A stretch of 64,000 nucleotides of DNA. It comes from Paracoccaceae bacterium (lineage in GTDB: Bacteria; Pseudomonadota; Alphaproteobacteria; Rhodobacterales; Rhodobacteraceae). The stretch is taken from NCBI GenBank assembly GCA_022843025.1, contig JALHOL010000003.1:124001-188000 (forward strand), in the 5' to 3' direction. Both the position numbers and the translations under genes were made by a program. Positions within the stretch are counted from its first letter, which is position 1, and every line of letters begins with the position of its first letter. The notes beneath the pieces were generated by a model. The model was not told the origin of the DNA. It ran no database searches and worked only from the letters and a program-made list of their open reading frames with translations. Shown piece by piece: positions 3,699 through 35,215 of the stretch.

Positions 3699-3749
3699 GC
3701 ATTTCCGGCGGAATGACTTGCGGCCCGCGGTGACCGCCCCTATATCTGA

Positions 3750-9833: not shown

Positions 9834-9843
9834 CGTCATGCCT

Positions 9844-10515: not shown

Positions 10516-10538
10516 GGCAAAAGCCTCCGGTCAAAAGG

Positions 10539-10604: not shown

Positions 10605-10626
10605 TCGCCACGATCACCGCAAGGGT

Positions 10627-11427: not shown

Positions 11428-11449
11428 TCCGGGTCCCTCGCGTTTCTTG

Positions 11450-12019: not shown

Positions 12020-12207
12020 TGCCCCTCCTCTTCGGTTGCCAATTCCGGGCGCACCGAATTGTCAAACCCCTGCATCGGATCGCCGCGCGTGACCTTCACC
12101 ACGGTCAGCGCAAAGACCAGCACGATGAACAGGCCCAGCGTCACCGCCACACCCACATTCCGGCCCAGCCGCCGCTTGTGAATTTCATGCTCCGGACGAA
12201 AGGCCAT
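12016..12207 (-). CDS. Small single-pass membrane protein of the cytochrome oxidase cluster
   Basis: A 63-aa protein: a basic N-terminus (MAFRPEHEIHKRRLGRNVG), one transmembrane helix (VAVTLGLFIVLVFALTVVKV), and a short periplasmic tail ending [10 protein letters not shown]. Small open frames of this design sit between ctaB and ctaG in Paracoccus and Rhodobacter oxidase clusters. No biochemical role can be read from the sequence; assembly or stabilisation of the oxidase is inference from context. ATG at 12207 overlaps the ctaB stop (TGATG) and the gene's own stop overlaps the ctaG start, so it is translated as part of a coupled chain. A GTG two codons upstream is an alternative start. Confidence 0.8.
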   Translation of the reverse strand: MAFRPEHEIHKRRLGRNVGVAVTLGLFIVLVFALTVVKVTRGDPMQGFDNSVRPELATEEEGQ

Positions 12208-13139: not shown

Positions 13140-13210
13140 CTGTCTGTCTTCCTATCGGTGGGTGAAATGCCCCGGCGCACCGGGGCAACCCCTGCCTGTC
13201 ACGGCTTGTG

Positions 13211-14101: not shown

Positions 14102-14285
14102 GTTCTTATCCCGTTCGCGTGCGCGGCCTTGGGCCGCTGCCGTTTTCCCCGCACGTTGCCCGCAACAGACAGCCGCGCAGAATCCCGTTGTTTCCTGTTC
14201 GCTTGAAACCATATTAAGGCCTCTACAGCAAGCCAAAGCGTTGCGGCAAAAGCGCGCCGCTTGACCCAGATCAAGGACAGCCCCC

Positions 14286-15707
14286 ATGACCGATGCCCCT
14301 TTCCGCCCCTTCGAGACGGCACTGGATGAAGGGGCAGCCCTGGCGATCCTGCGCGACGCCACGGCCGGGGCCGATGACGGCGAGCTTTTCCTTGAACGCA
14401 AACGCTCCGAGGCGATCGTGCTGGACGATGGCCGCATCAAGACGGCCGCCTATGACGCCTCCGAAGGGTTCGGCCTGCGCGCCGTGCGGGGCGAGGTTGC
14501 GGGCTATGCCCATTCAACCGAAATCTCTGAAAAAGCCCTGCGCCGCGCGTCCGAAACCGCACGCATTGCCGTGGGCGATGGGGGCGGCACGCTGGCCGCA
14601 TCGCCCAAAGGCACCAATACCCGCCTTTATGGCGATGCTGACCCGATGCTGGACGCCACTTTCGCGGGCAAACTGGACCTGCTGAAGGAGATTGACGCCT
14701 ATGCCCGCGCGCTTGACCCCCGCGTGGTGCAGGTGTCGGCAACGCTTGCTGCGGGCCTGCAAGAGGTGGAAATCCTGCGCCCCGAAGGCCTGCGCCTTGC
14801 TGACATCCGCCCGATGGCGCGGCTGAACGTATCGGTAATCGTTGAACAGAATGGCCGCCGCGAACAGGGCGGCACGGGCGGCGGTGGCCGCTTCGGCCTG
14901 GCCCGTCTGATGGAGCGCAGCCACTGGCAACCCATGGTGGCCGAGGCGCTGCGGATTGCTCTGGTCAACCTTGACGCTGTCCCTGCGCCTGCGGGGATGA
15001 TGGATGTGGTCCTTGGTCCCGGCTGGCCCGGCATCCTGCTGCATGAGGCGATCGGTCACGGGCTGGAGGGCGACTTCAACCGCAAACAGACCTCGGCCTT
15101 TGCGGGCCTGATGGGCAGCCGCATCGCCGCAGCGGGGGTGACAGTGTTGGATGATGGCACCATTCCCGACCGGCGCGGGTCAATCAGCGTCGATGACGAA
15201 GGCACGCCTTCGGGCAAGAATGTGCTGATCGAGGATGGCATCCTTGTGGGCTACATGCAGGATCGCCAGAACGCCCGCCTGATGGGCGTGGCCCCCACCG
15301 GCAACGGGCGGCGCGAAAGCTTCGCCCATATTCCGATGCCGCGCATGACGAATACCTACATGCTGGCCGGCCCGGATGATCCCGCCGCGATCCTCGCTGA
15401 TCTGAAGGATGGCATCTATGCCGTGGGCTTCGGCGGCGGTCAGGTCGATATCACCAATGGCAAGTTCGTGTTTTCCTGCACCGAGGCCTACCGCGTGCAG
15501 AACGGCAAGATCGGCGCCCCGGTCAAGGGTGCCACACTGATCGGCGACGGGGCCACCGCCCTGCGACAGATCCGCGCCATCGGCAATGATCTGGCGCTGG
15601 ATCCCGGCATCGGCAATTGCGGCAAGGCGGGGCAATGGGTGCCGGTGGGCGTTGGGCAGCCTACCTTGCTGATCGGGGGCCTCACCGTCGGCGGCAGCGC
15701 GGCCTGA
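14286..15707 (+). CDS. tldD: Metalloprotease TldD
   Basis: A 473-aa member of the TldD/PmbA family. The zinc motif HExxxH is HEAIGHGLEGD (H253, E254, H258), which marks the TldD subunit; the PmbA/TldE partner lacks it. Conserved C-terminal segments VGFGGGQVDITNGKFVFSCTEAY and IGNCGKAGQWVPVGVGQPTL are present. With TldE it forms a heterodimeric protease that trims unfolded peptides and matures ribosomally made peptides such as microcin B17. No TldE gene or peptide cluster is adjacent. The divergent arrangement with ctaC recurs in this family of bacteria. Confidence 0.95.
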   Translation: MTDAPFRPFETALDEGAALAILRDATAGADDGELFLERKRSEAIVLDDGRIKTAAYDASEGFGLRAVRGEVAGYAHSTEISEKALRRASETARIAVGDGGGTLAASPKGTNTRLYGDADPMLDATFAGKLDLLKEIDAYARALDPRVVQVSATLAAGLQEVEILRPEGLRLADIRPMARLNVSVIVEQNGRREQGGTGGGGRFGLARLMERSHWQPMVAEALRIALVNLDAVPAPAGMMDVVLGPGWPGILLHEAIGHGLEGDFNRKQTSAFAGLMGSRIAAAGVTVLDDGTIPDRRGSISVDDEGTPSGKNVLIEDGILVGYMQDRQNARLMGVAPTGNGRRESFAHIPMPRMTNTYMLAGPDDPAAILADLKDGIYAVGFGGGQVDITNGKFVFSCTEAYRVQNGKIGAPVKGATLIGDGATALRQIRAIGNDLALDPGIGNCGKAGQWVPVGVGQPTLLIGGLTVGGSAA

Positions 15708-20749: not shown

Positions 20750-22018
20750 TCAACCGGGCGGCAGAATCAGCACGGCCCTGAAATCGTTCACATTGGTCAG
20801 CGTTGGCCCGGTGATCACCTGATCGCCCAGCGCGGCGAAAAAGCTGTGCGCGTCATTGGCCGCCAGCGCGCGCCCTGCATCCACCCCGGCCCGCGCCGCC
20901 CGCGCCAGCGTATCGGGTGCCACCCGCGCGCCAGCCACCTCTGCCGCGCCATCCACACCGTCGGTATCGCAGGCAATCGCATGCACCTGGGGATGCCCGC
21001 GCAGCGCCAGCGCAAGGGCGAGGCAGAATTCCGCATTCGGCCCACCGATGCCATCGCCCCGCCGCGTCACTGTCAGTTCCCCGCCCGACAGCAGCAGTAC
21101 GGGCCGATTCCCGGCGCGCAGCCCTTCCGCCGCCTCTACCGCCAGCCTCGCATGGGCGATGGCCGCCTCCCGCGCTTCACCCTCCAAGGCATCGCCCAGC
21201 AGCCGGACCTCTACGCCCTTTGCCATCTGGGCTGCCGCCGTCAGCGACTGGATCGGCGCGGCATAAATCACATTCTCCACCCGCCCCAGCCGCGCATCGC
21301 CGGGCGGCACCACGCCCGAAGGCCCGTTCAGCGCCGCCGTCACACTGTTCGGCACGTCCACCTTCCACCGCTCCAGCACCGCTCGCGCCTCGGCCACGGT
21401 CGAGGCATCGCCGACGGTCGGGCCTGATCCGATGAAAGCCGGATCATCGCCCGGCACATCCGATATCATCAGCGTCAGCATCCGCGCGGGCCAGGCTGCC
21501 GCCGCCAGCTGCCCGCCCTTCACCCGGCTCAGATGCTTGCGGACCGTGTTCATCCGGTCAATCGGCGCACCAGAGGCCAGCAGCGCGGCATTCACCGCCT
21601 GTTTCTCCGCCAGCGTCACTCCGGCAACAGGTGCCACCAGCAAAGCCGAAGCCCCGCCCGAAATCAGCGCCAGCACGAAATCCCCCTCGCCCAGCCCCGC
21701 CACCAAATCCAGCATCCGCGCGGTGGCCGCCGCCCCGGCTGCGTCCGGCACCGGATGCGCGGCCTCCACGATCTCGATCCCCCGGCAGGGGCGGCCATAG
21801 CCATAGCGCGTGATCACCAACCCCTCGCAGGGGCCCCAGGCGGCCTCCACCGCTTCGGCCATGCGGGCGCTGGCCTTGCCTGCGCCAATAACAACCACCC
21901 GCCCCGCAGGTTTGGGTGGCAGGAACTGCGCCAACGACCGCATCGGATCGGCCACTTCGACCGCCCGGTCGAAAAGGGCCCGCAGGAACGCCGCCGGTCC
22001 GATTTCAGAAAGATTCAT
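20750..22018 (-). CDS. Glycerate 2-kinase (MOFRL/DUF4147 family, TtuD/GckA type)
   Basis: A 422-aa protein with an N-terminal DUF4147 domain (VVVIGAGKASARMAEAVE; ALISGGASALLVAPV; DRMNTVRKHLSRVKGGQLA) and a C-terminal MOFRL domain (VLLLSGGELTVT, GIGGPNAEFCLALAL, ACDTDGVDG, NDAHSFFAALGDQVITGPTLTNVND). Older annotations call it hydroxypyruvate reductase; characterised members phosphorylate D-glycerate to 2-phosphoglycerate. It follows pxpC by 33 bp and may be in the same operon, although no metabolic link to 5-oxoproline is established. Confidence 0.9.
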   Translation of the reverse strand: MNLSEIGPAAFLRALFDRAVEVADPMRSLAQFLPPKPAGRVVVIGAGKASARMAEAVEAAWGPCEGLVITRYGYGRPCRGIEIVEAAHPVPDAAGAAATARMLDLVAGLGEGDFVLALISGGASALLVAPVAGVTLAEKQAVNAALLASGAPIDRMNTVRKHLSRVKGGQLAAAAWPARMLTLMISDVPGDDPAFIGSGPTVGDASTVAEARAVLERWKVDVPNSVTAALNGPSGVVPPGDARLGRVENVIYAAPIQSLTAAAQMAKGVEVRLLGDALEGEAREAAIAHARLAVEAAEGLRAGNRPVLLLSGGELTVTRRGDGIGGPNAEFCLALALALRGHPQVHAIACDTDGVDGAAEVAGARVAPDTLARAARAGVDAGRALAANDAHSFFAALGDQVITGPTLTNVNDFRAVLILPPG

Positions 22019-22051
22019 CCGCCCCTCCTGCGCTGCGCAGATCGCGCAGCC

Positions 22052-22984
22052 TCATGTCCGTTCCAGCAACCGCCGCAGGGCCGCCGCCCGCAATCGCACC
22101 ATCGCCACCGCCTGTTCCGGGGTTACTGATCGAAAGCGCACCTCTGCATGTGGCCGCAATTGCGCGAAAGCGTCCAGTTCGGAACCGACCAGCGTGGCGA
22201 TCTTCGGATAGCCCCCGGTCGTCTGATGATCTGCCATCAGCACAGCCGCCACCCCATCCCCCGCCACTTGCACCGATCCGCGCAACACGGGTTCGGACGG
22301 GATGCCCAGCGCATCTTCGGGTGCCAGCGATGGCCCGCGCAGGCGCACCCCCATCCGATCATAGGCATCGGTCAGATGAAAGCGTGCTCCCAGCAGCATC
22401 TCGATCCGTTCCGGCGCAAAGAACCGCTCTTGCGGCCCGATCACCAGCGGCACCGCATCCCCGCGCGGCCGCGCCCAGACCGGGCAGGCCATCGGCCGCG
22501 CCGCAACCGTTCGCGCCTGTTCAACCACCAGCCGCCGGCCTGCCACAACGGCACCACCGCCCAACCCGGACAGCGCATGTGTGGCCACACTGCCCAGCCA
22601 CGGTTCTGCCACCAACACCCCGGCAAAGGCGATCGTGCACCACGCCCCCCAAGGCCCGCGCCGGATCGCCAGCCGGTCGCCTTCGCGCAAGCTTACCACC
22701 GACCACGACCCCGTCCGCGCCGCCCCGGCCTCCACCACAAAGCCGCCACCCGCCACCGCGACCGACAACGCCCCCGCCTCGACCTCCAGCACCAGCCCGC
22801 CCAGCGACATTTCGACCGCCGCCGCGCCCGGCGCATTGCCCAGCGCGTGATTGGCCAGCGCCAGCGCCGCCCGGTCCATCGCGCCAGAGGCCGGCACGCC
22901 AAAGCGCATCAGCCCGACCCGCCCGCCATCCTGGACCGAACAATGCGGCCCGGCCGCGATCACCCGCAGCACCGCCCGCGCCAT
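22052..22984 (-). CDS. pxpC: 5-oxoprolinase subunit C
   Basis: A 310-aa member of the biotin-dependent carboxyltransferase/KipA (allophanate hydrolase subunit 2) family. It opens MARAVLRVIAAGPHCSVQDGGRVG and has GVPASGAMDRAALALANHALGN and the C-terminal DHQTTGGYPKIATLV, all typical. With PxpA and PxpB it hydrolyses 5-oxo-L-proline to glutamate using ATP. Its ATG overlaps the pxpB stop (TGATG), indicating translational coupling. Confidence 0.95.
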   Translation of the reverse strand: MARAVLRVIAAGPHCSVQDGGRVGLMRFGVPASGAMDRAALALANHALGNAPGAAAVEMSLGGLVLEVEAGALSVAVAGGGFVVEAGAARTGSWSVVSLREGDRLAIRRGPWGAWCTIAFAGVLVAEPWLGSVATHALSGLGGGAVVAGRRLVVEQARTVAARPMACPVWARPRGDAVPLVIGPQERFFAPERIEMLLGARFHLTDAYDRMGVRLRGPSLAPEDALGIPSEPVLRGSVQVAGDGVAAVLMADHQTTGGYPKIATLVGSELDAFAQLRPHAEVRFRSVTPEQAVAMVRLRAAALRRLLERT

Positions 22985-23664
22985 CAGCCGCGCTCCGCTG
23001 CGGCGAAATCGTCCAGCCCCACGCGCCGGAACCGCACCCTGTCACCCACATCGAACAGAAAAGGCCGCGCCGCATCCCCCGTCAGAATCCGCGTAAGCGA
23101 CCGCCCGATCACCCACCATCCTGTCGGCATGGTCAGTGTCGTCACCAGACATTGCCCCCCCGCAATAATGACGCTGCCCGCCGCGACGCCCCGCACGGGG
23201 GCCGCCTTGCGCGGCAGGTGAATCGCCTCTGGCACGCCGGTCAGATAGGCATAGCCGGGGGCAAAGCCGTACATGAACACCCGGTAGTCGCCTGCCAGAT
23301 GCGCCGCGATCACCGCTTCTGCGCTTAGCCCCGTCGCACTTGCCACAGCAGCCAGATCGCGCCCGAACTCCCCATCATAGCAGACCAGAACCTCGTGCCC
23401 TGCCCCGTCCACCCTGTCTGGCCGGGCAAGGGAAAGCCGCGCCTCCACCCCAGCCGCGACAGCCGCGTGATCGGTCATCAGCGGGTCAAAGACCACCAGC
23501 AGGTTCACCATGGCAGGCACCACCTCTACCTGCCCCCCCACCGGATCTTCGCGCAACACCCGGTCCAGCGCCAACACCGCATCATGCACGCCGTCTGTCA
23601 CAGCTGCGCCGAAATCCACCAGCACGGCACGGTCGGCCACCGGGGTCAGGCGCGGATAGTCCAT
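22984..23664 (-). CDS. pxpB: 5-oxoprolinase subunit B
   Basis: A 226-aa member of the KipI/allophanate hydrolase subunit 1 family. It begins MDYPRLTPVADRAVLVDFG, and the signature VFMYGFAPGYAYLTGVPEAI lies in the C-terminal half. It forms a complex with PxpC within the ATP-dependent 5-oxoprolinase. The start at 23664 is one base after the pxpA stop (TGAGATG); the longer open frame to 23934 shadows pxpA. The conserved start motif and spacing support this choice. Confidence 0.94.
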   Translation of the reverse strand: MDYPRLTPVADRAVLVDFGAAVTDGVHDAVLALDRVLREDPVGGQVEVVPAMVNLLVVFDPLMTDHAAVAAGVEARLSLARPDRVDGAGHEVLVCYDGEFGRDLAAVASATGLSAEAVIAAHLAGDYRVFMYGFAPGYAYLTGVPEAIHLPRKAAPVRGVAAGSVIIAGGQCLVTTLTMPTGWWVIGRSLTRILTGDAARPFLFDVGDRVRFRRVGLDDFAAAERG

Positions 23665-23665
23665 C

Positions 23666-24433
23666 TCAGACCCCGGCAAAGGGGCGGATGGCAAGCCCTG
23701 CCGCCTCAAGGCTTGCGCGCAGGCCGCGCGCCAGTGCCACCGCACCGGGCGTGTCGCCATGCACACAGACCGACCGCGCCGCCAAGGCGACCTCACCCCC
23801 GCCCAGCACCGGCATCCGGCCCGTCTCGGCAAATCGCAGCAGCCGCTCTGCCACCATCGCAGGATCGTGCAATACCGCGCCCGCCTGCCCGCGCGGCACC
23901 AGCCGCCCGTCGGCGCGATAGGCGCGGTCGGCAAAGACCTCGGACACCACCTCGAGCCCGGCCTTGCGCCCCTCTATCTCCAACTCCGTTCCGGAAATTG
24001 CCAGCAGCGCAAGTTTACCCGGCAGCGCACGCACCGCCCCGGCAATGGCCGCCGCCACTTCGGCCCGGTCGGCGGCCAAATTGGCCAGCGCCCCATGCGC
24101 CTTGACGTATCGCACCGGCACCCCGGCCAGCGCGGCCACGCCCTGCAAGGCACCCACCTGCGCGGCCACCATGCGCGCAATCTCATTCGGCGTCATCGGG
24201 ATCACCCGCCGTCCGAAACCCTCGCGGTCGGCATAGCCGGGATGGGCACCCACGACGACGCCGCGCTCTGCCGCCAACCGAAGGCTAGCAAACATCACCT
24301 CGGGGTCGCCCGCATGGCCGCCGCAGGCCAGATTGGCGCTGCTGACAATGTCCAGCATCGCCGCGTCATCGCCCATGGCCCAAGGCCCAAACCCCTCGCC
24401 CAGATCGGCATTCAGGTCGATCTCGTGCAGCAA
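23666..24433 (-). CDS. pxpA: 5-oxoprolinase subunit A (LamB/YcsF family)
   Basis: All family motifs are present: EIDLNADLGEGFG, SANLACGGHAGDP, GAHPGYADREGFGRR, VKAHGALANLAADR and VCVHGDTPGAVALAR. It is the third component of the prokaryotic 5-oxoprolinase that opens 5-oxoproline, a spontaneous glutamine/glutamate damage product. The start is taken as TTG at 24433 (LLHEIDLNADLGE), giving 255 aa, close to the family length, with a G-rich run GGGGGGAT upstream. The open frame continues to a GTG at 24529, so a longer N-terminus cannot be excluded. It is the first gene of the pxpABC operon. Confidence 0.92.
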   Translation of the reverse strand: MLHEIDLNADLGEGFGPWAMGDDAAMLDIVSSANLACGGHAGDPEVMFASLRLAAERGVVVGAHPGYADREGFGRRVIPMTPNEIARMVAAQVGALQGVAALAGVPVRYVKAHGALANLAADRAEVAAAIAGAVRALPGKLALLAISGTELEIEGRKAGLEVVSEVFADRAYRADGRLVPRGQAGAVLHDPAMVAERLLRFAETGRMPVLGGGEVALAARSVCVHGDTPGAVALARGLRASLEAAGLAIRPFAGV

Positions 24434-24584: not shown

Positions 24585-24659
24585 GGCCCGTTCGTCTATC
24601 GGTTAGGACACCAGGTTTTCAACCTGGGAAGAGGGGTTCGACTCCCCTACGGGCTGCCA
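24585..24659 (+). tRNA. tRNA-Glu (anticodon TTC)
   Basis: A 75-nt cloverleaf with encoded CCA. The acceptor stem GGCCCGT pairs with ACGGGCT (G-U at position 1). The anticodon stem is CCAGG/CCTGG with loop TTTTCAA, giving anticodon TTC. The T-arm is GAGGGGTTCGACTCCCCT. The match to bacterial tRNA-Glu is complete. Confidence 0.98.
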
Positions 24660-25670: not shown

Positions 25671-27473
25671 TCAGACCGCCACCATATGCCCGCCCCCGAC
25701 ATCGATCAGCCGCTGGCGATCCGGCCCCTTGCCGATGGCGTGAACCGGGCTTGGCACTTCCCCCACCAAACGCGCCGAAGCGGCGCGGCGATGCGCCGGG
25801 TCAGGCACCGGCACCGCCTCGATCAGGCGCTGGGTATAGGCGTGGCGCGGGTCGCCAAACACCTGCGCCCGCGTCCCCATCTCGACGATCTGACCCAGAT
25901 ACATCACCGCCACCCGATCCGAGATCGTGTCCACCACCGCCATGTCATGGCTGATGAACAAAAAGGCGACGCCCATTTCTTCCTGCAATTCACGCAAAAG
26001 GGCCAACACCCGCGCCTGCACGCTGACATCCAGCGCCGACACACTTTCATCCGCGATAATCAGATCAGGCTTCAGAGCCAGCGCGCGGGCGATGCAGATG
26101 CGCTGCCGCTGGCCGCCAGAAAATTCATGCGGGTATCTGTCGATCTGGTCTGCCGACAATCCCACCCGCCGGATCAGATCGGCCGCCCGCTCGCGCCGGT
26201 CCGCCGCCGTGCCGATGCCGTGGATCAGCAGCGGCTCGGCAATCAGGTCGCCCACCCGCATCCGCGGGTCCAGCGCGGCCATCGGGTCCTGAAACACCAT
26301 CTGCACCCGCCGCCGCAGCGCCTTTGGCGCATCCCGCCCCTGCCCGGACAGGATATGATCCCCGATGCGTATCTGTCCCTGATGCGGCACAAGGCCGACC
26401 ATTGCCTTCGCAATCGTGGATTTGCCGCAGCCGGATTCGCCCACCAGCGAAAAAGTCTCGCCGCGCCGGATGTCAAAGCTGACCTGTTCCACCGCGTGAA
26501 CATTCAGCGTCGTCCGCCCCAAGAGCCCGCCCTTGATCGGAAAGCGCACGACCACATCCGTCAGGCTTGCCACCGCATCGGGGCTGCCCGGTGTCGGACT
26601 GTCGGTCCGGCTGCCCATGCGCGGCACGGCGGCCAGCAGGTCGCGGGTATAGGTCTGGGCCGGGGCGTGAAACAGGGTGGCGACCGGTGCCTCCTCGACC
26701 ATGCGGCCTGATTTCATCACGATGACGCGGTCGGCCATCTCGGCCACCACCCCCATGTCATGCGTGATCAGGATGATCGCCGTGCCCAGATCGCGCTGCA
26801 AATCGCGCAGCAGATCCAGCACCTCGCGCTGCACGGTCACATCCAGCGCCGTTGTCGGCTCATCAGCGATCAGCACCTCGGGCCGCAAGGCCAGCGCCAT
26901 GGCGATCATCACCCGCTGCCGCATCCCGCCCGAAAGCTCATGCGGGAACTGATCCATCCGCCGTTCCGGCTGTGACAGCCGTACCGATGTCAACGCCGCC
27001 AGCGCGCGCCGCCGCGCCTCGGCCCGGCTGACATCCTCATGCGCGCGCACCGCCTCGGCCAGCTGGGTTCCGATGGTCAGCACCGGGTTCAGGCTTGTCA
27101 TCGGTTCCTGAAAGATCATCGCAATCCGATCGCCCCGCACCGCGCGCATCTGCGCTTCGGACGCGGCGGTCAGGTCGGTCGTGCCAAGGCGGATGCTGCC
27201 AGCGGTGACGCGCACCGCGGGCGGCGGCAACAGGCCCATGATGGCCAGCGAGGTGATGGATTTGCCCGACCCGCTTTCCCCGGCAATCGCCAGCGTCTCA
27301 CCGCGGTTCAGGGTGAAGGACAGGTCTTCGACCAGCGGCTTCAACCCTGCCTCGGTGCGCACCGAAACAGTCAGCCCCTCGACCGACAGCACGGGTCCAT
27401 CGGCCGGGGCCATGACTGGGGCCATGACCGGGGCCGCTGCGGCCCCGGTCGTTTGTGCATCGACAACCGTCAT
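25671..27473 (-). CDS. Fused dipeptide/nickel-type ABC transporter ATP-binding protein (DppD-DppF)
   Basis: A 600-aa protein with two complete ATPase domains. The first has Walker A GESGSGKS and signature ELSGGMRQR; the second has GESGCGKS and FSGGQRQR, each followed by Walker B (LIADEPTTALD, IIADESVSALD) and an OppD/F-type tail. It powers import through the DppB-DppC permeases encoded upstream. It is the last gene of the amiC-amiR-dppCBA-fmdA-dppDF operon and overlaps fmdA by 4 bp. Fusing the two ATPases is common in alphaproteobacterial peptide importers. The repetitive N-terminus (APVMAPVMAP) is outside the domain. Confidence 0.93.
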   Translation of the reverse strand: MTVVDAQTTGAAAAPVMAPVMAPADGPVLSVEGLTVSVRTEAGLKPLVEDLSFTLNRGETLAIAGESGSGKSITSLAIMGLLPPPAVRVTAGSIRLGTTDLTAASEAQMRAVRGDRIAMIFQEPMTSLNPVLTIGTQLAEAVRAHEDVSRAEARRRALAALTSVRLSQPERRMDQFPHELSGGMRQRVMIAMALALRPEVLIADEPTTALDVTVQREVLDLLRDLQRDLGTAIILITHDMGVVAEMADRVIVMKSGRMVEEAPVATLFHAPAQTYTRDLLAAVPRMGSRTDSPTPGSPDAVASLTDVVVRFPIKGGLLGRTTLNVHAVEQVSFDIRRGETFSLVGESGCGKSTIAKAMVGLVPHQGQIRIGDHILSGQGRDAPKALRRRVQMVFQDPMAALDPRMRVGDLIAEPLLIHGIGTAADRRERAADLIRRVGLSADQIDRYPHEFSGGQRQRICIARALALKPDLIIADESVSALDVSVQARVLALLRELQEEMGVAFLFISHDMAVVDTISDRVAVMYLGQIVEMGTRAQVFGDPRHAYTQRLIEAVPVPDPAHRRAASARLVGEVPSPVHAIGKGPDRQRLIDVGGGHMVAV

Positions 27474-28429
27474 TCAAACACGCAGCGCGGGAAGTAGAAG
27501 CTTACCACCCAGTTCGGCATGTCGACGATTTCGGAGATCCGCAGATCACCGCAGGTGGACACCAGCATATAGGCATCCACCGCCGCCATGCCGCGCGTGG
27601 CGCAGAGCAGGTCGATCATGTTGGCCACCGCATCACGGCTGGCGGTCATCAGGTCGGGCCCGATCCCTGTGGTCACCTCGTATCCTTTGGCATCCAGATG
27701 CCGCGTCACCGGCCCCGGTGTGGTGAACCGCGGCGTCTTCAGGTTCGCCCCCTTCACCAGATCGAGCGTCAGGACAACATCCATGGGCGATTCAATGGCC
27801 GTGCCGCAGACCTCGCCATCACCTTGCGCGGCATGGGTGTCGCCCACGCTGAACAGGGCACCCGCCACTTCGACCGGCAGGTACAGCACCGTGCCAGCGT
27901 TCAGATCGCGGATATCAAGGTTGCCACCCACCCGGCGCGGCGGCACCACCGAATGCAGACCCGGTTCCGCCAAGGCATTGCCGATGGTCCCGGCAAAGGG
28001 CTTCAGCGGCACGCGCCCCTGATCCGACCACAGCGCAGGCGCCATGCTGATGGGGTCGTACTTCCACACCTTCAGCGCGGGTTCGGTGAACTGGTCGGCC
28101 AACAACCCAAAGCCCGGAATATTCGCCGTCCAGCCGAACCCTGCCCCATCAAAGGCGCGCGGGGCAAAGCTGTCGATCGTCACCTTGACCGCGTCGCCGG
28201 GTTCCGCCCCTTCGATATAGATCGGCCCAGACACCGGGTTGATCTTGCCGAAATCAAGGCTGACCACATCCGCCACGGTCGACGACGGGCCAAGCTGGCC
28301 CGCCGAGGAATCGTTGCAATGAAACAGGATCGTCGATCCCGGTTCAGCGCGCAGCGCTGGCGGCAGGGTGTTATCCCAGCCGAAATGATGCTGCGCGCCG
28401 TGGATCGTATAGTTGCAGTCCTTGCACAT
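27470..28429 (-). CDS. fmdA: Acetamidase/formamidase family protein
   Basis: A 319-aa FmdA/AmdA-type amidohydrolase, unrelated to the nitrilase amidases. Typical segments are HHFGWDNTLPPALRAEPG, NPVSGPIYIEGAEPGDAVKV, PPRRVGGNLDIRDLNAGTVL, LFSVGDTHAAQGDGEVCGTA and TRHLDAKGYEVTTGIGPDL. The metal-binding His/Asp residues of the family lie in GDTHAAQGDGE. It hydrolyses short-chain amides such as formamide or acetamide to the acid and ammonia. It is embedded between the binding-protein gene and the ATPase gene of an ABC importer under AmiC/AmiR-type regulators, so the imported compound is probably an amide that this enzyme cleaves in the cytoplasm. Confidence 0.92.
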   Translation of the reverse strand: MCKDCNYTIHGAQHHFGWDNTLPPALRAEPGSTILFHCNDSSAGQLGPSSTVADVVSLDFGKINPVSGPIYIEGAEPGDAVKVTIDSFAPRAFDGAGFGWTANIPGFGLLADQFTEPALKVWKYDPISMAPALWSDQGRVPLKPFAGTIGNALAEPGLHSVVPPRRVGGNLDIRDLNAGTVLYLPVEVAGALFSVGDTHAAQGDGEVCGTAIESPMDVVLTLDLVKGANLKTPRFTTPGPVTRHLDAKGYEVTTGIGPDLMTASRDAVANMIDLLCATRGMAAVDAYMLVSTCGDLRISEIVDMPNWVVSFYFPRCVFE

Positions 28430-28430
28430 T

Positions 28431-30041
28431 TTACTTCACGAAAACATAGTCATAGTTGACCGGGATCGACACCGGATCGACGTAGAGAGCATCCTCGCCC
28501 CCCATGCGTTCCGATTTCATCGTATAGCGCTCCTCGTTGAACACCGGCACCCAAGGGGCCTGTTCCATCACGCCCATGTAAACGTCAGACCACATCTTCA
28601 GCCGGTCCTCGGCCTTGGCCGGATCAGACATGCTGTCGGCCTGCACCGCCATCGCATCCAGCGCCTCATCGCAGAACTTCGACCAGTTCCAGCCGCCTTC
28701 GCCTGCACCCGCACAGCCCAGGATCGGGCCGTAGAAGTTCGACGGATCGGGGAAGTCCGCAATCCAGGCCATGCCGCCGGACCAGATCATCGGCGCGGTG
28801 CCCGCACCGCCTGCCTCGATCACATTGGCCTGCGCCAGCGACTGGATATTGGCGGTGATCCCGATGGCCGCCAGATCCTGCTGGATCGCCTGCGCGATCC
28901 GCGGGTTCGGGTCGGTGTTCATCACGTAAAGATCGGTCTCGAACCCATCGGCAAACCCGGCCCCGGCCAACAGCGCCTTGGCCCCCTCGACGTCATAGGG
29001 ATAGCCCGCATATCCTCCGGTATAACCCGGCATCGACGGCGGTAGCGGCTGGGTGGCAGGCGCGGCGCGGCCGTTGATGATCTGCGTCACGCGGTCCTTG
29101 TTGATCGCCATGTTCACGGCCTTGCGCACATCGACATTGTCGAAGGGCGGGGTCGTGACGTTCAGCGTGATATAGCCGGTGTGCAACTGCCCACCCTGCA
29201 CCACGCGCGCGGCCTGTCCCGGATCGCCCATCACTTCCACGAACTTCGCAGGCGGGATGCCATCGCCGGGAACGTCCACCTCGCCATTCTGCAACCGCAG
29301 CAGGGCGACCACGGGCTCCTGACCCACCTCGAACACCACGCCGTCCAGATAGGGCACGCCCTCGCGCCAGTAATCGGCGTTCTTTTCGAACACCAGCCGC
29401 TGGCCCAGCGTCCATTCCGCCAGCTTGAAGGCCCCGGTCCCAACCGGCAGCTTGCCAAAATCGCCCGCCGCCGCATCGACCGCCTCTTTCGGCACGACAG
29501 ACGCAAAGTTCAGCGCCATGACATGCAGGAAGGTCGCATCCGGCCGCGACAGGGAAATCTTCACCGTCAACGGATCAACAACCTCTACCCCCGACAGGCC
29601 ACCCGCACCGGCCGCCTCGAACCCGGTGATCGAGCCGAAGAAGCCCGCCCCCGGCGATTGGGTTTCGGGATTGGTCACACGGTCGAGCGAGTATTTCACA
29701 TCCTCGGCCGTCATCTCGCGCCCGTTGTGGAACTTCACCCCGGCGCGCAGCTTGAAGGTATAGGTCAGCCCGTCCTCGGAAATCTCATAGCTTTCCGCCA
29801 AACCGGGGCGCAGCGTGGTGGTGCCTGGGACATAGTCCATCAGCCCGTCGAACAGCGACTTGATCATCGACCAGTTCTGCCAGTCATAGCCGATGGCCGG
29901 GTCAAGCGTGGCCACGTCATCCTTGTAGGTCACTGTGATGGTCCCGCCCGCCTTGGCGTTCGGGTCGGGCGTGTAGTCCTGTGCAACGGCGGGCAGCGCC
30001 AGCGTCAGGACAAGCGCGGTGGAAGTCAGCCATCTGTTCAT
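28431..30041 (-). CDS. ABC transporter substrate-binding protein, DppA/SBP family 5
   Basis: A 536-aa periplasmic protein with a signal peptide (MNRWLTSTALVLTLALPAVA). The family 5 pattern follows: GGTITVTYKDDVATLDPAIG, DGLTYTFKLRAGVKFHNGREM, DVKYSLDRV, VGTGAFKLAEW and FDNVDVRKAVNMAINKDRV. Such proteins bind peptides, nickel complexes, opines or other small ligands. The amide regulators and formamidase in the operon suggest that the ligand carries an amide. The start at 30041 has a strong AGGAGAGAAGAA upstream; an in-frame ATG 12 codons earlier lacks this and would spoil the signal peptide. Confidence 0.93.
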   Translation of the reverse strand: MNRWLTSTALVLTLALPAVAQDYTPDPNAKAGGTITVTYKDDVATLDPAIGYDWQNWSMIKSLFDGLMDYVPGTTTLRPGLAESYEISEDGLTYTFKLRAGVKFHNGREMTAEDVKYSLDRVTNPETQSPGAGFFGSITGFEAAGAGGLSGVEVVDPLTVKISLSRPDATFLHVMALNFASVVPKEAVDAAAGDFGKLPVGTGAFKLAEWTLGQRLVFEKNADYWREGVPYLDGVVFEVGQEPVVALLRLQNGEVDVPGDGIPPAKFVEVMGDPGQAARVVQGGQLHTGYITLNVTTPPFDNVDVRKAVNMAINKDRVTQIINGRAAPATQPLPPSMPGYTGGYAGYPYDVEGAKALLAGAGFADGFETDLYVMNTDPNPRIAQAIQQDLAAIGITANIQSLAQANVIEAGGAGTAPMIWSGGMAWIADFPDPSNFYGPILGCAGAGEGGWNWSKFCDEALDAMAVQADSMSDPAKAEDRLKMWSDVYMGVMEQAPWVPVFNEERYTMKSERMGGEDALYVDPVSIPVNYDYVFVK

Positions 30042-30076
30042 TTCTTCTCTCCTGTTGGGTTTTGATTTGTGCCGCA

Positions 30077-30994
30077 TCAGCGCAACCGGATGCGGGGGTC
30101 GACAAGCGGGGTAACAAGATCGGCCAGCAGGTTGCCGATCACGATCGCAAAGGCAGAAACAAGGGTGACACCCATGATGATCGGGATGTCGACGCGCTGG
30201 ATCGCCTGCCAGGCCAACTGCCCGATCCCGGGCCAGCCAAAGACGGATTCCACCACGACGATCCCGCCCATGAAGATGCCGATATCAATGCCGATCATGG
30301 CGATGACAGGCAGGATCGCATTGGGCAGTGCATGGCGCAGCACGACGCGCGCGCGGCTCAGCCCTTTGGCGCGCGCCGTGCGGATGTAATCGGCGCGCAG
30401 CACCTCGATCATGCTGGATCGCATCATCCGCGAATACCAGCCGGAGCCGAGGATGCCCAAGGTTATGGCAGGCAACACCAGATGCGCCGCCGTCCCGTAG
30501 CCCCCGATGGGGAACCAACCCAGCTTGACAGCAAAGACATACAACAGCAGCAGGCTGACCACGAATTGCGGGGCCGATACGGTGACAAAGGATGTCATCA
30601 TCAAAAGCTGATCGCCAAGCCGCCCCCGCATCAGGGCGGCGGCAATGCCCATGGACAGCCCCAGCACCAGTTCGGCGAATATCCCCGCCGCCATCAGTTG
30701 CAGGGTGGCGGGCAGGCGCGACAGGATCAGTTCCGTCACCTGCGTCTTCTGCAGATAGCTGCGCCCCAGATCGCCCTGCACCAACCCGCCCAGATAGCGG
30801 CCATATTGCACAAGGAACGGCTGATCCAATCCCAGCTGCTGGCGGATATTCTCCACCGTTTCCGCCGTTGCGGCCCGCCCGGCGATCTGGCGTACCGGAT
30901 CGGCGGGCAGCACGAACAGCAGCAGAAAGGTGATGAAGCTCACCCCCAGCAGGATCAGCGCCGATTGGATCAGCCGGTTCAGGACATAGACCAT
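30077..30994 (-). CDS. ABC transporter permease, DppB type
   Basis: A 305-aa inner-membrane permease. It starts MVYVLNRLIQSALILLGVSF and has six predicted membrane segments, the DppB signature LPADPVRQIAGRAATAE after the first helix, and the EAA loop around IEVLRADYIRTARAKGLSRARV. It forms the channel with DppC. It directly abuts dppC (shared base at 30994), so translation is coupled. Confidence 0.94.
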   Translation of the reverse strand: MVYVLNRLIQSALILLGVSFITFLLLFVLPADPVRQIAGRAATAETVENIRQQLGLDQPFLVQYGRYLGGLVQGDLGRSYLQKTQVTELILSRLPATLQLMAAGIFAELVLGLSMGIAAALMRGRLGDQLLMMTSFVTVSAPQFVVSLLLLYVFAVKLGWFPIGGYGTAAHLVLPAITLGILGSGWYSRMMRSSMIEVLRADYIRTARAKGLSRARVVLRHALPNAILPVIAMIGIDIGIFMGGIVVVESVFGWPGIGQLAWQAIQRVDIPIIMGVTLVSAFAIVIGNLLADLVTPLVDPRIRLR

Positions 30995-31878
30995 CAGTCC
31001 CGCCCCCGCTGTGTCGGGTCCAGCACATCGCGCAACGCATCGCCCACAAGGTTGAAGGCCAAGGCCAGCAGGATGATCGCCGCACCGGGGATGAACACCA
31101 GCCAGGGCGCAGCCTGAAAATAGGTCTGGTTTTCAAAGATGATGTTGCCCCAGCTTGGGGTGGGTGGCTGCACCCCAACTCCAAGAAAGGACAGCGTCGC
31201 CTCCAGCAGCACGGTGGTTGAAATCCCCAACGTGCCCCAGACGATGATGGTGGGCACCAGATGCGGCAGGATGTGGTGAAACAGGATGCGCCCCGTCCCC
31301 GCGCCCAGCGTCCGCTCGGCGGCGATGAAATCGCGCTCGGCCAGCGAGGTGGTCTCGGTATAGATCACCCGCGCCGTCTGCACCCAGTTCACCAGCGCAA
31401 TCACCAGCGCCACGATCCACAGCGACGGCCGAAAGATCGCGGCCAGACAGATCGCCAGCAGCAGCGCCGGAAAGGCCATCATCAGATCGGTGAACCGCAT
31501 AAGCGCGGCCCCGATCCAGCCCCGGAAGAAGCCCGCCGTAATTCCCACCAGCGTACCGATGAACAGGGCTAGCCCGTTCGCCACCACCCCGATGATCAGC
31601 GACGTCTGCGCTCCGTACAGCATACGACTGAACAGATCGCGCCCCAGCAGATCTGTCCCCATCAGGAACCGCCCATCAGGCGGAAGCGGCGCGCCTTCCA
31701 GCGTCAGCCCGTCAAACATCTGCTCTTCCGGCGCAAAGGGCGCAATCAACGGGGCTAGCAGGGCCGATCCGACCACCAGCACGATCAGCGCAAAGCCGAA
31801 CAACGCCAATTTGCGCTCCAGCAAGCGGCGCAGGGTGCTTTTGGGGCGGACGGCGCCGCCGACCACCGCATCAGACAT
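30994..31878 (-). CDS. ABC transporter permease, DppC type
   Basis: A 294-aa permease with the OppC N-terminal region (KLALFGFALIVLVVGSALLAPLIAPF), the GTDLLGRDLFSRMLYG motif and the EAA loop around LAERDFIAAERTLGAGTGRI. It pairs with DppB. The start at 31878 (MSDAVVGG) overlaps the end of the ANTAR gene by 8 bp (ATGTCTGA). This ties expression of the importer directly to its predicted antiterminator. Confidence 0.94.
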   Translation of the reverse strand: MSDAVVGGAVRPKSTLRRLLERKLALFGFALIVLVVGSALLAPLIAPFAPEEQMFDGLTLEGAPLPPDGRFLMGTDLLGRDLFSRMLYGAQTSLIIGVVANGLALFIGTLVGITAGFFRGWIGAALMRFTDLMMAFPALLLAICLAAIFRPSLWIVALVIALVNWVQTARVIYTETTSLAERDFIAAERTLGAGTGRILFHHILPHLVPTIIVWGTLGISTTVLLEATLSFLGVGVQPPTPSWGNIIFENQTYFQAAPWLVFIPGAAIILLALAFNLVGDALRDVLDPTQRGRD

Positions 31879-32479
31879 CCTGCACCCCCGCACCGTCAGA
31901 GGCAGACCCATCCCGGCTGGCCACGATCCGTGTGGCCGCATCCTCGAAACTGATGCGCCAGGCCATCGCCATCTGGCGCAGTTGCGCATAGGCCTGTTCT
32001 TCCGTCTTGCCCCGCGCCGCCAGCAGCGTCACCGCGCGCACCACCGTCTGTCGCCCGTCCAGCCGCCGCTTCAGTTCGGCAATCTCTGCCGACAGCGCCT
32101 TTTGCGCGTCAAACGCATCCCGCGCGATCAACAGCGCCGAATAGGCCCCGTTATCCCCCACAGGTTTCAGCAATTGCGCATGCGACCCCGCCCGCAGCGA
32201 CCATTCTATCCGTCCCGGCGCCTCTGACCCGATCAGCGCGATCATCGGCATGGGGGATTGGCCCGCAGGCCAGGGAAACATGCCGTCATGCCCCATATCG
32301 GCATCGAAAAAGACGTAATCCGCGCCGATGGCATCCGCCGCAAGTTCCGGCCAGGATTGCGTCACGTCCAGCCCGATCGCTGTCAACTGCCGCACCAGCG
32401 CCTGAACCGTGGGATGTGGGCGATGCAGGATACAAGCCTGCGCGCCACCCAGATTGGGAATGCGAATCGACCGCCTCAT
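31871..32479 (-). CDS. amiR: AmiR-like ANTAR-domain antitermination regulator
   Basis: A 202-aa protein with an N-terminal pseudo-receiver domain (ACILHRPHPTVQALVRQL ... YVFFDADMGHDG), then a coiled coil (AQKALSAEIAELKRRLDG) and a C-terminal ANTAR three-helix domain (RAVTLLAARGKTEEQAYAQL ... EDAATRIV). This is the layout of AmiR of Pseudomonas aeruginosa, which binds leader RNA and prevents termination when released from AmiC. No phospho-acceptor phosphorylation is needed in AmiR. It overlaps both amiC (4 bp) and dppC (8 bp), fitting regulation by stoichiometric complex formation with AmiC. Confidence 0.9.
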   Translation of the reverse strand: MRRSIRIPNLGGAQACILHRPHPTVQALVRQLTAIGLDVTQSWPELAADAIGADYVFFDADMGHDGMFPWPAGQSPMPMIALIGSEAPGRIEWSLRAGSHAQLLKPVGDNGAYSALLIARDAFDAQKALSAEIAELKRRLDGRQTVVRAVTLLAARGKTEEQAYAQLRQMAMAWRISFEDAATRIVASRDGSASDGAGVQDV

Positions 32480-33564
32480 GACACGACCCTCAGCTTCGGC
32501 GCGACGGTCACATGGGCCGACCGCGTCAGATAGGGATCCCCCGCCACCGCCTCGCGCCGATGCACCAGACGGAACGCCCCGCCCTCGACCCGCGCGATGA
32601 TCGCAGGCAGCGTGGTATGGTGGGTCTCAGGATCAATGATCCCACCCCCCGCCTCGGCCAGCAATTGCGACAGGCTCAACGCCTCGGCCCCCGGACGATG
32701 GGCCAGAAGTCGCGCCAGTTCGCGCACCGCAACATAGGCCGCCGCCTCATGCGACGATCCGAACCGCCCCTTCCCCGGCCAGCCATCGATCCCCCGGAAA
32801 TACGGCCCCGCCGCAACCAACCCCTCGGCCGCCGGTCCGATGGCGGGCAATTCGCATTCCGTCATATTGCAAGACAGGACCGGGCACCGCTCGGGCCGGA
32901 AATGATCATCCTGCTGGCCCAGCGTCCGGAACGCGGCCAGAAACTCATAAGATGATGGCCCGATCAGGGAATTCAGCACGAAATCCGGACGCGCGAAGCG
33001 GATCTCCTCAATCATCCGGCCCACATCGCGCGATCCGATGGGCAGATACCGCTCTCCCGCGATCACGCCCCCCGCCAGCACGATCCGCTCGCGCGCAAGG
33101 CGGTTCATTTCCCAACCCCAGATATAGTTCGACCCCGTCAGATAGGCCTTGCCACCATGGGCGGGCATCACCCAATCCAAAAGTGGAAGCAGATGCTGGT
33201 TCGGGCAGGCATGGGTATAGACGACATGATCCGATGCCTCGAACCCTTCATAAGGCACCGCATACCACAACGTGCCGCCATGGCGTTCCAGCGTCGGGAT
33301 CACTTCCTTCCGGCTCCAGGACGTTACACAGCCGATGACATGCCGCGCTGCGGTCTCGTTCAGGATTTCTTCGCAGAGCGGGCCATAAAGATCGACATTC
33401 CCCTCGGGATCGCGCTCGACCGGCACGAAGGACAGGTCAAGCTCCGGATCGGCGTTCAACTCGGCAATCGCCGCCAACGCCCCGGACCGGCACGCCTCCG
33501 AGATCAGGGAGTAACTCCCCGACCGCGAATACAGAAGCCCGATTTCGATCCGCCGCTTCGTCAC
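32476..33564 (-). CDS. amiC: AmiC-like cytoplasmic amide-binding sensor
   Basis: A 362-aa periplasmic-binding-protein-fold regulator without a signal peptide. It begins MTKRRIEIGLLYSRSGSYSL, is about the length of P. aeruginosa AmiC, and has GCVTSWSRKEVIPTLERHGG, LWYAVPYEGFEASDHVVYTH and GSNYIWGWEMNR, typical of the AmiC/UrtA group. AmiC holds AmiR inactive until an amide ligand binds. The absence of a signal peptide, the 4-bp overlap with an ANTAR gene and the downstream formamidase argue for a regulator rather than a urea-type transport protein. The start is GTG at 33564. It is the first gene of the operon. Confidence 0.9.
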   Translation of the reverse strand: MTKRRIEIGLLYSRSGSYSLISEACRSGALAAIAELNADPELDLSFVPVERDPEGNVDLYGPLCEEILNETAARHVIGCVTSWSRKEVIPTLERHGGTLWYAVPYEGFEASDHVVYTHACPNQHLLPLLDWVMPAHGGKAYLTGSNYIWGWEMNRLARERIVLAGGVIAGERYLPIGSRDVGRMIEEIRFARPDFVLNSLIGPSSYEFLAAFRTLGQQDDHFRPERCPVLSCNMTECELPAIGPAAEGLVAAGPYFRGIDGWPGKGRFGSSHEAAAYVAVRELARLLAHRPGAEALSLSQLLAEAGGGIIDPETHHTTLPAIIARVEGGAFRLVHRREAVAGDPYLTRSAHVTVAPKLRVVS

Positions 33565-33582
33565 GTTTCAGCCCCCAAAACG

Positions 33583-33629
33583 CAAATGCCCGACGCAGCA
33601 GCCAAATGCTGCTGTCGGGGCACAAATGC
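33583..33629 (-). promoter_or_regulatory. amiC leader: three GCATTTG repeats at 20-nt period and a strong hairpin
   Basis: On the minus (coding) strand GCATTTG occurs at 33629-33623, 33609-33603 and 33589-33583, each exactly 20 nt apart. The middle copy is at the tip of a hairpin (33589-33619) with CCCGAC-AGCAGC pairing to GCTGCT-GCGTCGGG (2-nt bulge), loop ATTTG. The first copy lies in GGC-ATTTGT-GCC. The segment ends about 20 nt before the amiC start and is followed by a short TTTT. It is a candidate antitermination target for the AmiR-like protein. The repeats are seen; the role is inferred. Confidence 0.55.
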
Positions 33630-33847
33630 CGATTTTTGATGTTCGAGTAGATATTCAGATTAATGCAGCGGACCGGCACTGCAACCTTCTTCTTTGTCAG
33701 ACAGGCCCGGAAAGTGAAGAACGCACAAAATTCGGGCAATGCCATCCGGGCCGCGCAGCCCACCCACGCCGAAGTTCAGGCTGGAATCGGCACGCAGGCC
33801 GTGACATTTGCCAGATGATCCGCAGACCGCCAGCAAAGGGTGCGCAC

Positions 33848-35083
33848 ATGACGCAAGGACGGCTTAACCCGCCGACACTGCCCGCAACCGCGTTGCCCGA
33901 AACGCTCGCCCTCGATGCGGGGCTAATGGTTGATCCGGTCACCGGGGCAATCCAGCCCAATATCACGATGTCGGTGAACAATCTGGTGGTCCCCGGCGAA
34001 GGGGCTTTCTCTGCCGCCGGTCTGACCGATATCACGCAGGAACCCTTTACCTATGCGCGCTGGCTGAACCCCACGGTGCGCGCGTTAGAAACGCGCATGG
34101 CCGCGCTGGAAGGGGCCGAGGATGCGCTGGCCTTTGCCACCGGGGTTGCCGCCATCGCAGGCACCTTCCTGACGCTTCTGAAACAGGGCGACCATCTGAT
34201 CATCAGCGACGTAACCTATGCCGGGGCTGCCGAACTTGCCCGCGCCATCCTGCCCGATTTCGGGATCGAGGTGACGCCCGTCAACCTCTCCCTTCCCGGC
34301 GCGCTTCAGGCGGCACTTCGGCCCAACACCCGGCTGGTCCATTGCGAAAGCCCCTGCAACCCGATCCTGCGGCTGACCGATCTGGAACAGGTGGCCCAGA
34401 TCGCCCATGCCCATGGCGCGCTGGTATCAGTTGACAGCACCCTTGCCACACCCGTCGCCACCCAACCGATCAAGCTCGGCGTTGATCTTGTCATCCATTC
34501 CCTGACCAAATTCATCAATGGCCACGGCGATGCGCTGGGGGGCATCGTTGCAGGCCGCAAAGATCTGATCGCCCGGATGCGCGGACGGGCGGGCGTCTAT
34601 CTGGGCGCGGCCATGCCCGCGATGAATGCCTGGCTGATCCTGCGGGGGATCGACACGCTGTTCCCCCGGATGCGGCAAATTGCGGACACGGCGCAAAAGG
34701 TTGCCACGTTTCTGGAAACCCATCCACAGGTCACCCGCACCATCTATCCCGGCCTTGCCTCGCACCCCCAGCGCGCCCTTGCCGCAAAGCAGATGGCGCT
34801 GCCCGGCGGGATGATCTTCTTCCAGACCGCCGATCCCGCCGCTATGGCGCGCCAGATCGCGGCACGGCTTCAGGTGATGCATTACGCCTTTTCCCTCGGC
34901 CATCAGCGCAGCATCATCGTGATGCTGGACACGGCCGACATGATGCAGGGCAGCTATGCCCTGTCTCCCGACCAACTGGATGATTATCGCACCTATGCGG
35001 GCGATGGTGGCTTTCGGCTTTCCATCGGGCTAGAGGCCGCCGATGACCTGATCCGCGATCTGGATCAGGCCCTTGCAGGGTAA
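33848..35083 (+). CDS. Cys/Met metabolism PLP-dependent enzyme (cystathionine gamma-synthase/methionine gamma-lyase family)
   Basis: A 411-aa fold-type I PLP enzyme. Family marks are FTYARWLNPTVRALETRMAALEGAE, LAFATGVAAIAGTFLTLLKQGDHLI, VHCESPCNPILRLTDLE, GALVSVDSTLATPVATQP and the Schiff-base lysine in VIHSLTKFINGHGDALGG. The N-terminus differs from typical MetB or MegL (no YxR tyrosine motif clearly placed), so synthase, beta-lyase and gamma-lyase roles stay open. ATG at 33848 follows AAAGGG; the open frame begins further upstream at 33626. It diverges from amiC across a 283-bp shared region, but no functional link to amide metabolism can be shown. Confidence 0.88.
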   Translation: MTQGRLNPPTLPATALPETLALDAGLMVDPVTGAIQPNITMSVNNLVVPGEGAFSAAGLTDITQEPFTYARWLNPTVRALETRMAALEGAEDALAFATGVAAIAGTFLTLLKQGDHLIISDVTYAGAAELARAILPDFGIEVTPVNLSLPGALQAALRPNTRLVHCESPCNPILRLTDLEQVAQIAHAHGALVSVDSTLATPVATQPIKLGVDLVIHSLTKFINGHGDALGGIVAGRKDLIARMRGRAGVYLGAAMPAMNAWLILRGIDTLFPRMRQIADTAQKVATFLETHPQVTRTIYPGLASHPQRALAAKQMALPGGMIFFQTADPAAMARQIAARLQVMHYAFSLGHQRSIIVMLDTADMMQGSYALSPDQLDDYRTYAGDGGFRLSIGLEAADDLIRDLDQALAG

Positions 35084-35138: not shown

Positions 35139-35215
35139 TGGTACCGACGCCCCGGCTCGAACGGGGGACCCCCAGATCCACAATCTGGTGCTCTAACCAA
35201 CTGAGCTACGTCGGC
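35139..35215 (-). tRNA. tRNA-His (anticodon GTG), without encoded G-1
   Basis: A 77-nt cloverleaf with encoded CCA. The acceptor strand GCCGACG pairs with CGTCGGT. The anticodon loop TTGTGGA gives GTG. The T-arm is CCCCGTTCGAGCCGGGG. The base before position 1 is C, and the discriminator is A73, so neither half of the usual G-1:C73 identity pair is present. This is the state reported for a clade of alphaproteobacteria. Confidence 0.97.

Follow-up and report, generated by a model that had tools for sequence, protein, structure and literature searches.

A conserved leader hairpin and a predicted L-amino acid amide operon in a Paracoccaceae bacterium

Which amide is served, and how is expression controlled, when an AmiC-type sensor and an AmiR-type antiterminator share a gene cluster with a peptide-type ATP-binding cassette (ABC) importer and an FmdA-family amidase? 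The question is raised by positions 25,671 to 33,564 of a 64,000-nucleotide stretch of contig JALHOL010000003.1 from a Paracoccaceae bacterium, the whole of which is called the window here. We read the locus as an operon, under its own control, for the catabolism of imported amides (L-amino acid amides being the likeliest), in which antitermination via the leader would control transcription, and we put the probability of this reading at about 0.74. It draws on the content and recurrence of the gene set, on the identity of the binding protein to a solved relative, and on a conserved hairpin that shares one arm with a terminator ahead of amiC.

Gene content and recurrence of the operon

Seven open reading frames (ORFs), amiC-amiR-dppC-dppB-dppA-fmdA-dppDF, are arranged in tandem along the minus strand from 33564 to 25671, with overlaps of 4 base pairs (bp) at amiC/amiR, 8 bp at amiR/dppC, 1 bp at dppC/dppB and 4 bp at fmdA/dppDF:

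32476..33564, minus strand: amiC, predicted amide sensor and negative regulator (GTG start, 362 amino acids)
31871..32479, minus strand: amiR, predicted RNA-binding antiterminator (202 amino acids; AmiR_N and ANTAR)
30994..31878, minus strand: dppC-type permease (BPD_transp_1 and OppC_N; ATG start at 31878, longest ORF reaching 31989)
30077..30994, minus strand: dppB-type permease (BPD_transp_1 and BPD_transp_1_N)
28431..30077, minus strand: dppA-type (SBP_bac_5) periplasmic binding protein (longest ORF; PF00496, E 2e-100)
27470..28429, minus strand: fmdA, amidase of the FmdA_AmdA family (319 amino acids; PF03069, E 2.7e-58; PDB 5ubu, E 4.3e-40)
25671..27473, minus strand: dppDF, two ATPase domains in a single chain (ABC_tran and oligo_HPY, two stretches each)

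The importer comprises a full Dpp/Opp (SBP_bac_5) set of family-5 binding protein, two permeases and ATPases; aligned relatives suggest that the binding protein truly starts at Met13, about 30041. AmiR matched PF21332 and PF03861 above their cut-offs and PDB chain 1qo0_D (AmiR) with E 9.6e-11, and the amiC product has an AmiC-type sensor fold. A contiguous seven-gene operon with overlaps of 4-8 bp had been claimed in the original prediction, and all seven ORFs and those overlaps were found.

The prediction had also proposed a search of genomes for the seven-gene order and had presented the combination as unusual. In the best 80 of at least 490 confirmed FmdA matches, a sample fetched with the FmdA alignment and biased toward close relatives, all seven genes occur in the same order at 61 loci, so that the importer is not always separate from amiCR and fmdA. 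The order is present in 58 of the 67 loci that have at least 6000 bases before and at least 2000 after fmdA, and is far beyond chance. Among the 19 remaining loci, 9 depart from it despite having room; the other 10 are cut by a contig end, and of these L082, L098 and L126 depart in their visible part, L144 gives no AmiR match in its 740 bases ahead of dppC, and 6 are truncated without further sign of departure. The nine with room take several forms: L092 and L095, like the separately fetched L045, carry another Dpp-type importer after amiC-amiR-fmdA, L083 and L121 have importer and amidase without amiCR, and L097, L130, L132, L136 and L146 have FmdA without the binding protein and permeases of this importer. 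FmdA in these last five loci sits in other contexts, so that the amidase apparently moves from one importer type to another. Their FmdA proteins are 79-86% identical to those of the clade, and some lie beside apparent LIV-type importers.

Beyond this sample, FmdA was found at E 1e-60 or better in 27 of 196 genomes of the same order (own genome included), and an FmdA relative (E 1e-30) in 944 of 72,556 plasmid records, 746 of these from Klebsiella. The Klebsiella plasmid pKPN_CZ carries the identical seven-gene order as annotated, and the Sinorhizobium meliloti pSymB megaplasmid the same order, with six genes annotated and AmiR located by tblastn. Because the order recurs across loci, pKPN_CZ and pSymB, the seven genes form an established set, mobile on plasmids as well, and not a local fusion. 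The unusualness claimed for it does not hold, given the 61 loci and a Klebsiella plasmid operon already in print (PMC13209695, from the part of that paper open to us). As side observations, 613 of the 944 plasmid records are typed conjugative, and fecIRA and dgcN/dgcA genes adjoin the operon on pKPN_CZ.

Binding protein, amidase and probable ligand

The binding protein is identical at 397 of 513 aligned residues (77.4%) to PDB 8upi, titled 'Structure of a periplasmic peptide binding protein from Mesorhizobium sp. AP09 bound to aminoserine'; the remaining solved relatives trail far behind, at no more than 239 bits versus 907 for 8upi. The 8upi protein (MeAmi_SBP) is reported, in a 2024 paper in Biochemistry, to be a binder of L-amino acid amides from conserved FmdA-associated importer operons. 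In E. coli DppA, D436 binds the amine of the dipeptide and R383 its carboxylate (PMC12136057, as given in the accessible part of the text). D436 aligns with Asp441 of the binding protein, kept in 13/13 and 18/18 aligned rows, whereas R383 lies in a four-residue stretch absent from the binding protein and from 8upi, and nothing in 13/13 and 18/18 aligned rows corresponds to the carboxylate Arg (the binding-protein alignment, A5, leaves out L075 and L105, and L104 and L129 are shortened at the start). The amine site thus persists without the carboxylate site, which fits an amino acid amide, and the ligands are most likely L-amino acid amides. This argument is made from sequence: the AlphaFold model of the binding protein was poor (predicted local distance difference test score 56.4) and structural matches contributed only the 8upi title.

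The same residues bear on whether the importer instead takes up dipeptides or oligopeptides that end in an amide, or is a mixed importer, with FmdA acting on a product. Such a role would suit the SBP_bac_5 and DppB/DppC/DppDF types of its components and the dipeptide-binding proteins among the PDB relatives, but the E. coli DppA-type pairing of an Asp for the amine with an Arg for the carboxylate is broken by loss of the Arg throughout the aligned rows, and the bit scores set every solved relative other than 8upi far apart. We regard a peptide importer as improbable.

The fmdA product scores 198.1 bits against PF03069 (gathering score 27), which places the amidase of this unit in FmdA_AmdA and not in the nitrilase type expected of AmiE-type control. 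Formamidase, the functional name used in the original prediction, was rejected because the NCBIfam equivalog NF045496 gave 126.1 bits against a cut-off of 500, leaving a family label only. Over alignment residues 1-19, FmdA reads MCxxC...IH...HH.GWD, with Cys2, Cys5, His10, His14 and His15 invariant in 16/16 rows; this motif is a possible metal site. A second FmdA_AmdA protein (319 amino acids by ORF) is encoded in the same genome (L152, C5:333000-352500, 8902-15360, minus strand), in an apparent branched-chain-type importer cluster with a binding protein that looks UrtA-like by eye; no AmiR match was reported there.

AmiC carries the signature SN[YH]xWGWE in all 77 rows that adjoin AmiR and this importer (rows not de-duplicated, some loci being from the same genome), compared with SDYIYPRE in Pseudomonas aeruginosa AmiC; the AmiCs of LIV-type operons carry WAWE or YPRE-like forms. 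A competing view is that short aliphatic amides (acetamide, formamide, propionamide) are the substrates here, in line with Pseudomonas and Methylophilus, the Dpp-type importer being no more than their carrier. FmdA_AmdA membership would agree with this, as would the fold of AmiC, to which nothing is closer than the acetamide and butyramide complexes 1pea and 1qnl. In Klebsiella sp. KOS9 the only acetamidase gene stands in an operon with amiC, amiR and four ABC genes, and lysates of this strain have acetamidase activity (PMC13209695, accessible part), the kinship of that operon to ours being judged from its gene list. Set against short amides are the 77% identity to a protein bound to 'aminoserine', the missed formamidase cut-off, an AmiC signature unlike the YPRE type, and the placement of the second FmdA_AmdA gene of this genome in a branched-chain-type cluster, the more usual small-amide setting. 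We consider short amides unlikely as the principal substrates, albeit the foremost competitor of L-amino acid amides.

Some observations pull away from L-amino acid amides all the same. FmdA may also take acetamide or other simple amides, because the KOS9 operon is taken, from its gene list, to be of the pKPN_CZ kind. The best PDB sequence match of AmiC is the urea-binding protein 8tg1, and fold alone therefore cannot separate an amide sensor from a urea binder. The WGWE signature is shared by the AmiCs of L045, L092 and L095, which adjoin a different Dpp-type importer, and at least 12 of the 80 loci lack part of the gene set where it is visible. Finally, the 'aminoserine' of 8upi is a compound that we take to be L-serinamide. 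With these points included, the balance still favours the earlier suggestion that the ligand is larger than formamide, on the 77.4% identity to 8upi, the retained Asp and the lost Arg. Of the single unit of amide import, hydrolysis and control originally envisaged, the packed sensor, antiterminator, importer and amidase and the larger ligand stand, and the formamidase label and the unusualness fall away.

The leader RNA and its loop code

Upstream of amiC, the leader holds the following elements:

33656..33684, minus strand: tentative promoter, TTGCAG, 17 nucleotides, AATCTG (by eye, by analogy with a TTGAC box)
33619..33630, minus strand: P2 hairpin GGC-AUUUGU-GCC, proposed AmiR (ANTAR) target (from GGC-N6-GCC conservation)
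33588..33621, minus strand: terminator hairpin, its foot sharing GCC with P2 (free energy -21.8 kcal/mol)
33577..33587, minus strand: U-rich terminator tail, ATTTGCGTTTT (from sequence; interrupted T run)

We compared 64 leaders: that of the window and those of 63 loci, out of the 80, with an AmiC identity of 45% or more and 320 nucleotides or more upstream. A GGC-N6-GCC site is present in the last 150 nucleotides before amiC in 64/64 leaders (8.1 expected from dinucleotide shuffles), and GGCANNNRNGCC, whose loop has A first and a purine fifth, in 63 (0.71 expected from shuffles). Where there were two GGC-N6-GCC sites (L072, L084, L093, L119), the one nearest amiC was used; it has A1 in all four, and the preference of the script for A1 altered no choice among them. 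Automated folding found a terminator in 61/64 leaders (median -27.3 kcal/mol), with the 3' GCC of P2 forming its foot; the fold fails in L109, L131 and L141, where the hairpin is visible by eye. The six foot pairs have 96.4% standard-paired cells and 20 two-sided cells, and 0/500 shuffles were as high for both, shuffles that leave the relatedness among leaders in place; foot helices slid along the alignment of the 64 leaders as controls were at most 61.2% paired. The 5' GGC of P2 lies outside the terminator, yet it is invariant in 64/64. A TTGAC box lies 43-61 nucleotides upstream of P2 in 54/64 leaders (4.5 expected from base shuffles), a position from which P2 would fall near the transcript start. 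The window is among the 10 leaders without TTGAC and has TTGCAG instead, as do L068 and L072; a strict promoter consensus scan calls none at the window leader. The whole 67-base window leader folds better than 199/200 of its shuffles. This arrangement fits a predicted role of AmiR in switching on its own operon by antitermination.

Alternatively, AmiR could act elsewhere and the leader be an ordinary attenuator, or an unrelated terminator lying in the gap between amiC and its divergent neighbour. Several features of the leader lean that way or otherwise weaken the case for a switch. P2 shows no covariation in either direction, which is uninformative here since P2 never varies; foot pairs with two-sided changes number 3 versus 2.1 expected, a value that 134/500 shuffles reach. 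Alone, the window P2 forms a stem of 4 bp capped by a UUUG loop, and 64/200 shuffles are as stable. The strict terminator scan misses the window terminator, whose T tail is interrupted. G occurs at loop position 4 in 0/64 leaders, unlike the published ANTAR target, and the canonical first hexaloop was not found, a hairpin adjoining P2 upstream being present in only 31/64. Because the tail is interrupted and P2 alone is no stabler than shuffles, the evidence for a switch comes from conservation across leaders and not from the window copy by itself. An ordinary attenuator accounts poorly for the invariance of the upstream GGC outside the terminator, for the location of the other matches in this genome inside open frames, and for the five LIV-type amiCR leaders, 4/5 of which have GGC-hexaloop-GCC and 4/5 an upstream A1/G4 hexaloop. 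We hold this explanation to have little likelihood.

Those other matches in the genome were rejected as chance: an extra pattern match on C4 lies inside a long open frame resembling undecaprenyl-diphosphatase (by eye), and RNA-model matches on C1 and C2 each lie within long open frames, a weak criterion, given that open frames of the other strand overlap the site of the operon as well. The operon may therefore be the sole target in its genome, within a limited sensitivity: the RNA model was weak, with 150 of 5745 first-look candidates scored and the window's own site ranked second at E 0.06. No Rfam family matched the leader at E 1.

Published ANTAR targets carry a pair of A1/G4 hexaloops, the second of which overlaps the terminator (PMC3369931), and a crystal structure study argues for a single hexaloop as the minimal site (PMC8934654), both as stated in the sections available. 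In our leaders the hexaloop is likewise embedded in the terminator foot. Loop position 1 is A in 63/64 (L098 has G1), position 4 is C in 49, T in 8, A in 7 and G in none, and position 5 is a purine in 64/64 (G 53, A 11). A search of the 64 leaders of this clade for the canonical A1/G4 dual hexaloop did not find it. The 31 leaders with an upstream hairpin exceed the 7.6 expected from base shuffles; its loops have five or three bases in 24/31 and six in 2/31.

The S. meliloti pSymB leader has the same pattern, GGC-ATCTGG-GCC before a terminator, and the Klebsiella leader has an AGGU-AAUGAA-GCCU hairpin at the terminator foot, with G4 and purine 5 (by eye; its G-U closing pair falls outside the rules of the script). 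Outside this clade the loops vary. More distant Dpp-type operons have AATGGT (L048, with G4), AATCGG (L050) and AACAGC (L054), and the broken L060 has no GGC-hexaloop-GCC site. Among LIV-type operons the loops are AATGGT (L047), ACCGGC (L049), AACACC (L051, no purine at 5) and AACAGG (L053), with an upstream first loop of A1/G4 type in each; L052 has no hexaloop with a GGC stem, and its upstream loop is AAGAGC. Neither the lack of G4 nor the purine at position 5 holds across all AmiR lineages, because L048 has G4 and L051 lacks the purine, and from this variation the loop code seems to differ among lineages. We advance tentatively, at somewhat under even odds, that the AmiR of amino-acid-amide operons reads one hexaloop alone, marked by A1 and purine 5 and lacking G4, and needs no sequence-specific first hairpin, which would make this a natural case of single-hexaloop antitermination across Rhodobacterales and Hyphomicrobiales. 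Were this so, it would widen the rule for finding ANTAR targets, which kept A1/G4 (PMC3369931), and support one hexaloop as the minimal site (PMC8934654), as far as the accessible portions of these papers go.

On the other side of the leader lies a divergent Cys/Met-metabolism pyridoxal phosphate (PLP) enzyme of the methionine gamma-lyase type (about 33848-35083, plus strand). Its ORF is listed from 33626, overlapping the operon leader, and its true start is probably near 33848. It was rejected as a member of the system, with no tblastn match at 1e-40 among 117 related loci (the window not among them).

Proposed mechanism and relation to known systems

Under the reading we prefer, a self-regulated operon for L-amino acid amides, AmiC without ligand would hold AmiR, and polymerase coming from upstream of amiC would stop at the leader terminator, a state that would yield only a little AmiC and AmiR. 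An amide in the cytoplasm would make AmiC release AmiR, which would bind the P2 hexaloop; P2 would then take up the GCC needed by the terminator foot, so that no terminator forms and transcription runs through all seven genes. The Dpp-type importer would take up amino acid amides, recognised via the alpha-amine and not via a carboxylate, and FmdA would hydrolyse them to the amino acid and ammonia. Since the leader precedes amiC, sensor and antiterminator would control their own synthesis. One RNA switch with an exact site would in this way link the sensing of amino acid amides to their import and hydrolysis. The nutrient of the operon also bears on why plasmids carry it, since FmdA relatives sit on the 944 plasmid records counted above, 746 of them Klebsiella. 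As far as our literature searches show, the conserved leader, predicted to be self-regulatory and unusual in its loop code, is new; this leader was not described in the literature searched, most subscription papers lying outside that search.

Elsewhere in the window, tRNA-Glu (24585-24659) and tRNA-His (35139-35215) flank the operon-bearing stretch. Downstream, at 20750-23934 on the minus strand, are PxpB/PxpC-type carboxyltransferase-domain genes (CT_C_D, CT_A_B) and a DUF4147/MOFRL protein, which we take to be glycerate-kinase-like. A permuted (two-piece) alphaproteobacterial transfer-messenger RNA at 3714-4069 (plus strand) is ordinary for the group.

In Pseudomonas, the ami operon pairs a nitrilase-type AmiE with AmiS; here FmdA stands for AmiE and a Dpp-type importer for AmiS, and the leader lies before amiC. 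The P. aeruginosa operon is alike in its AmiC and AmiR homologues and in a terminator leader whose hexaloop hairpin shares the foot (PMC3369931, available part). Compared with the ANTAR dual-hexaloop targets of eut, nas and amiE (PMC3369931, PMC8934654, accessible parts of each), the 64 leaders agree in A1 and in the overlap of hairpin and terminator foot, and differ in having purine 5, no G4 and no canonical first hexaloop.

Five LIV-type amiCR operons (L047, L049, L051-L053) occur in the same family. They share AmiC and AmiR, FmdA in 4/5 and the GGC-hexaloop-GCC site in 4/5, but differ in a LIV-type importer (an assignment read from weak ATPase and binding-protein matches), in an FmdA only 33-34% identical, in the WAWE form of AmiC and in the A1/G4 first hexaloop found in 4/5. 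The Mesorhizobium MeAmi_SBP (8upi) is alike in the 77.4% identity of the binding protein and, reportedly, in its association with FmdA. The operon of pKPN_CZ has the seven-gene order, and its FmdA and binding protein are 67% and 65% identical to those of the window, but its AmiC is only 36% identical and its leader stem differs. The Klebsiella pKOS9-W1 operon, likened to that of the window by gene list alone, comprises amiC, amiR, an acetamidase and four ABC genes; acetamide is proposed for it, and the part of the source open to us describes no leader (PMC13209695).

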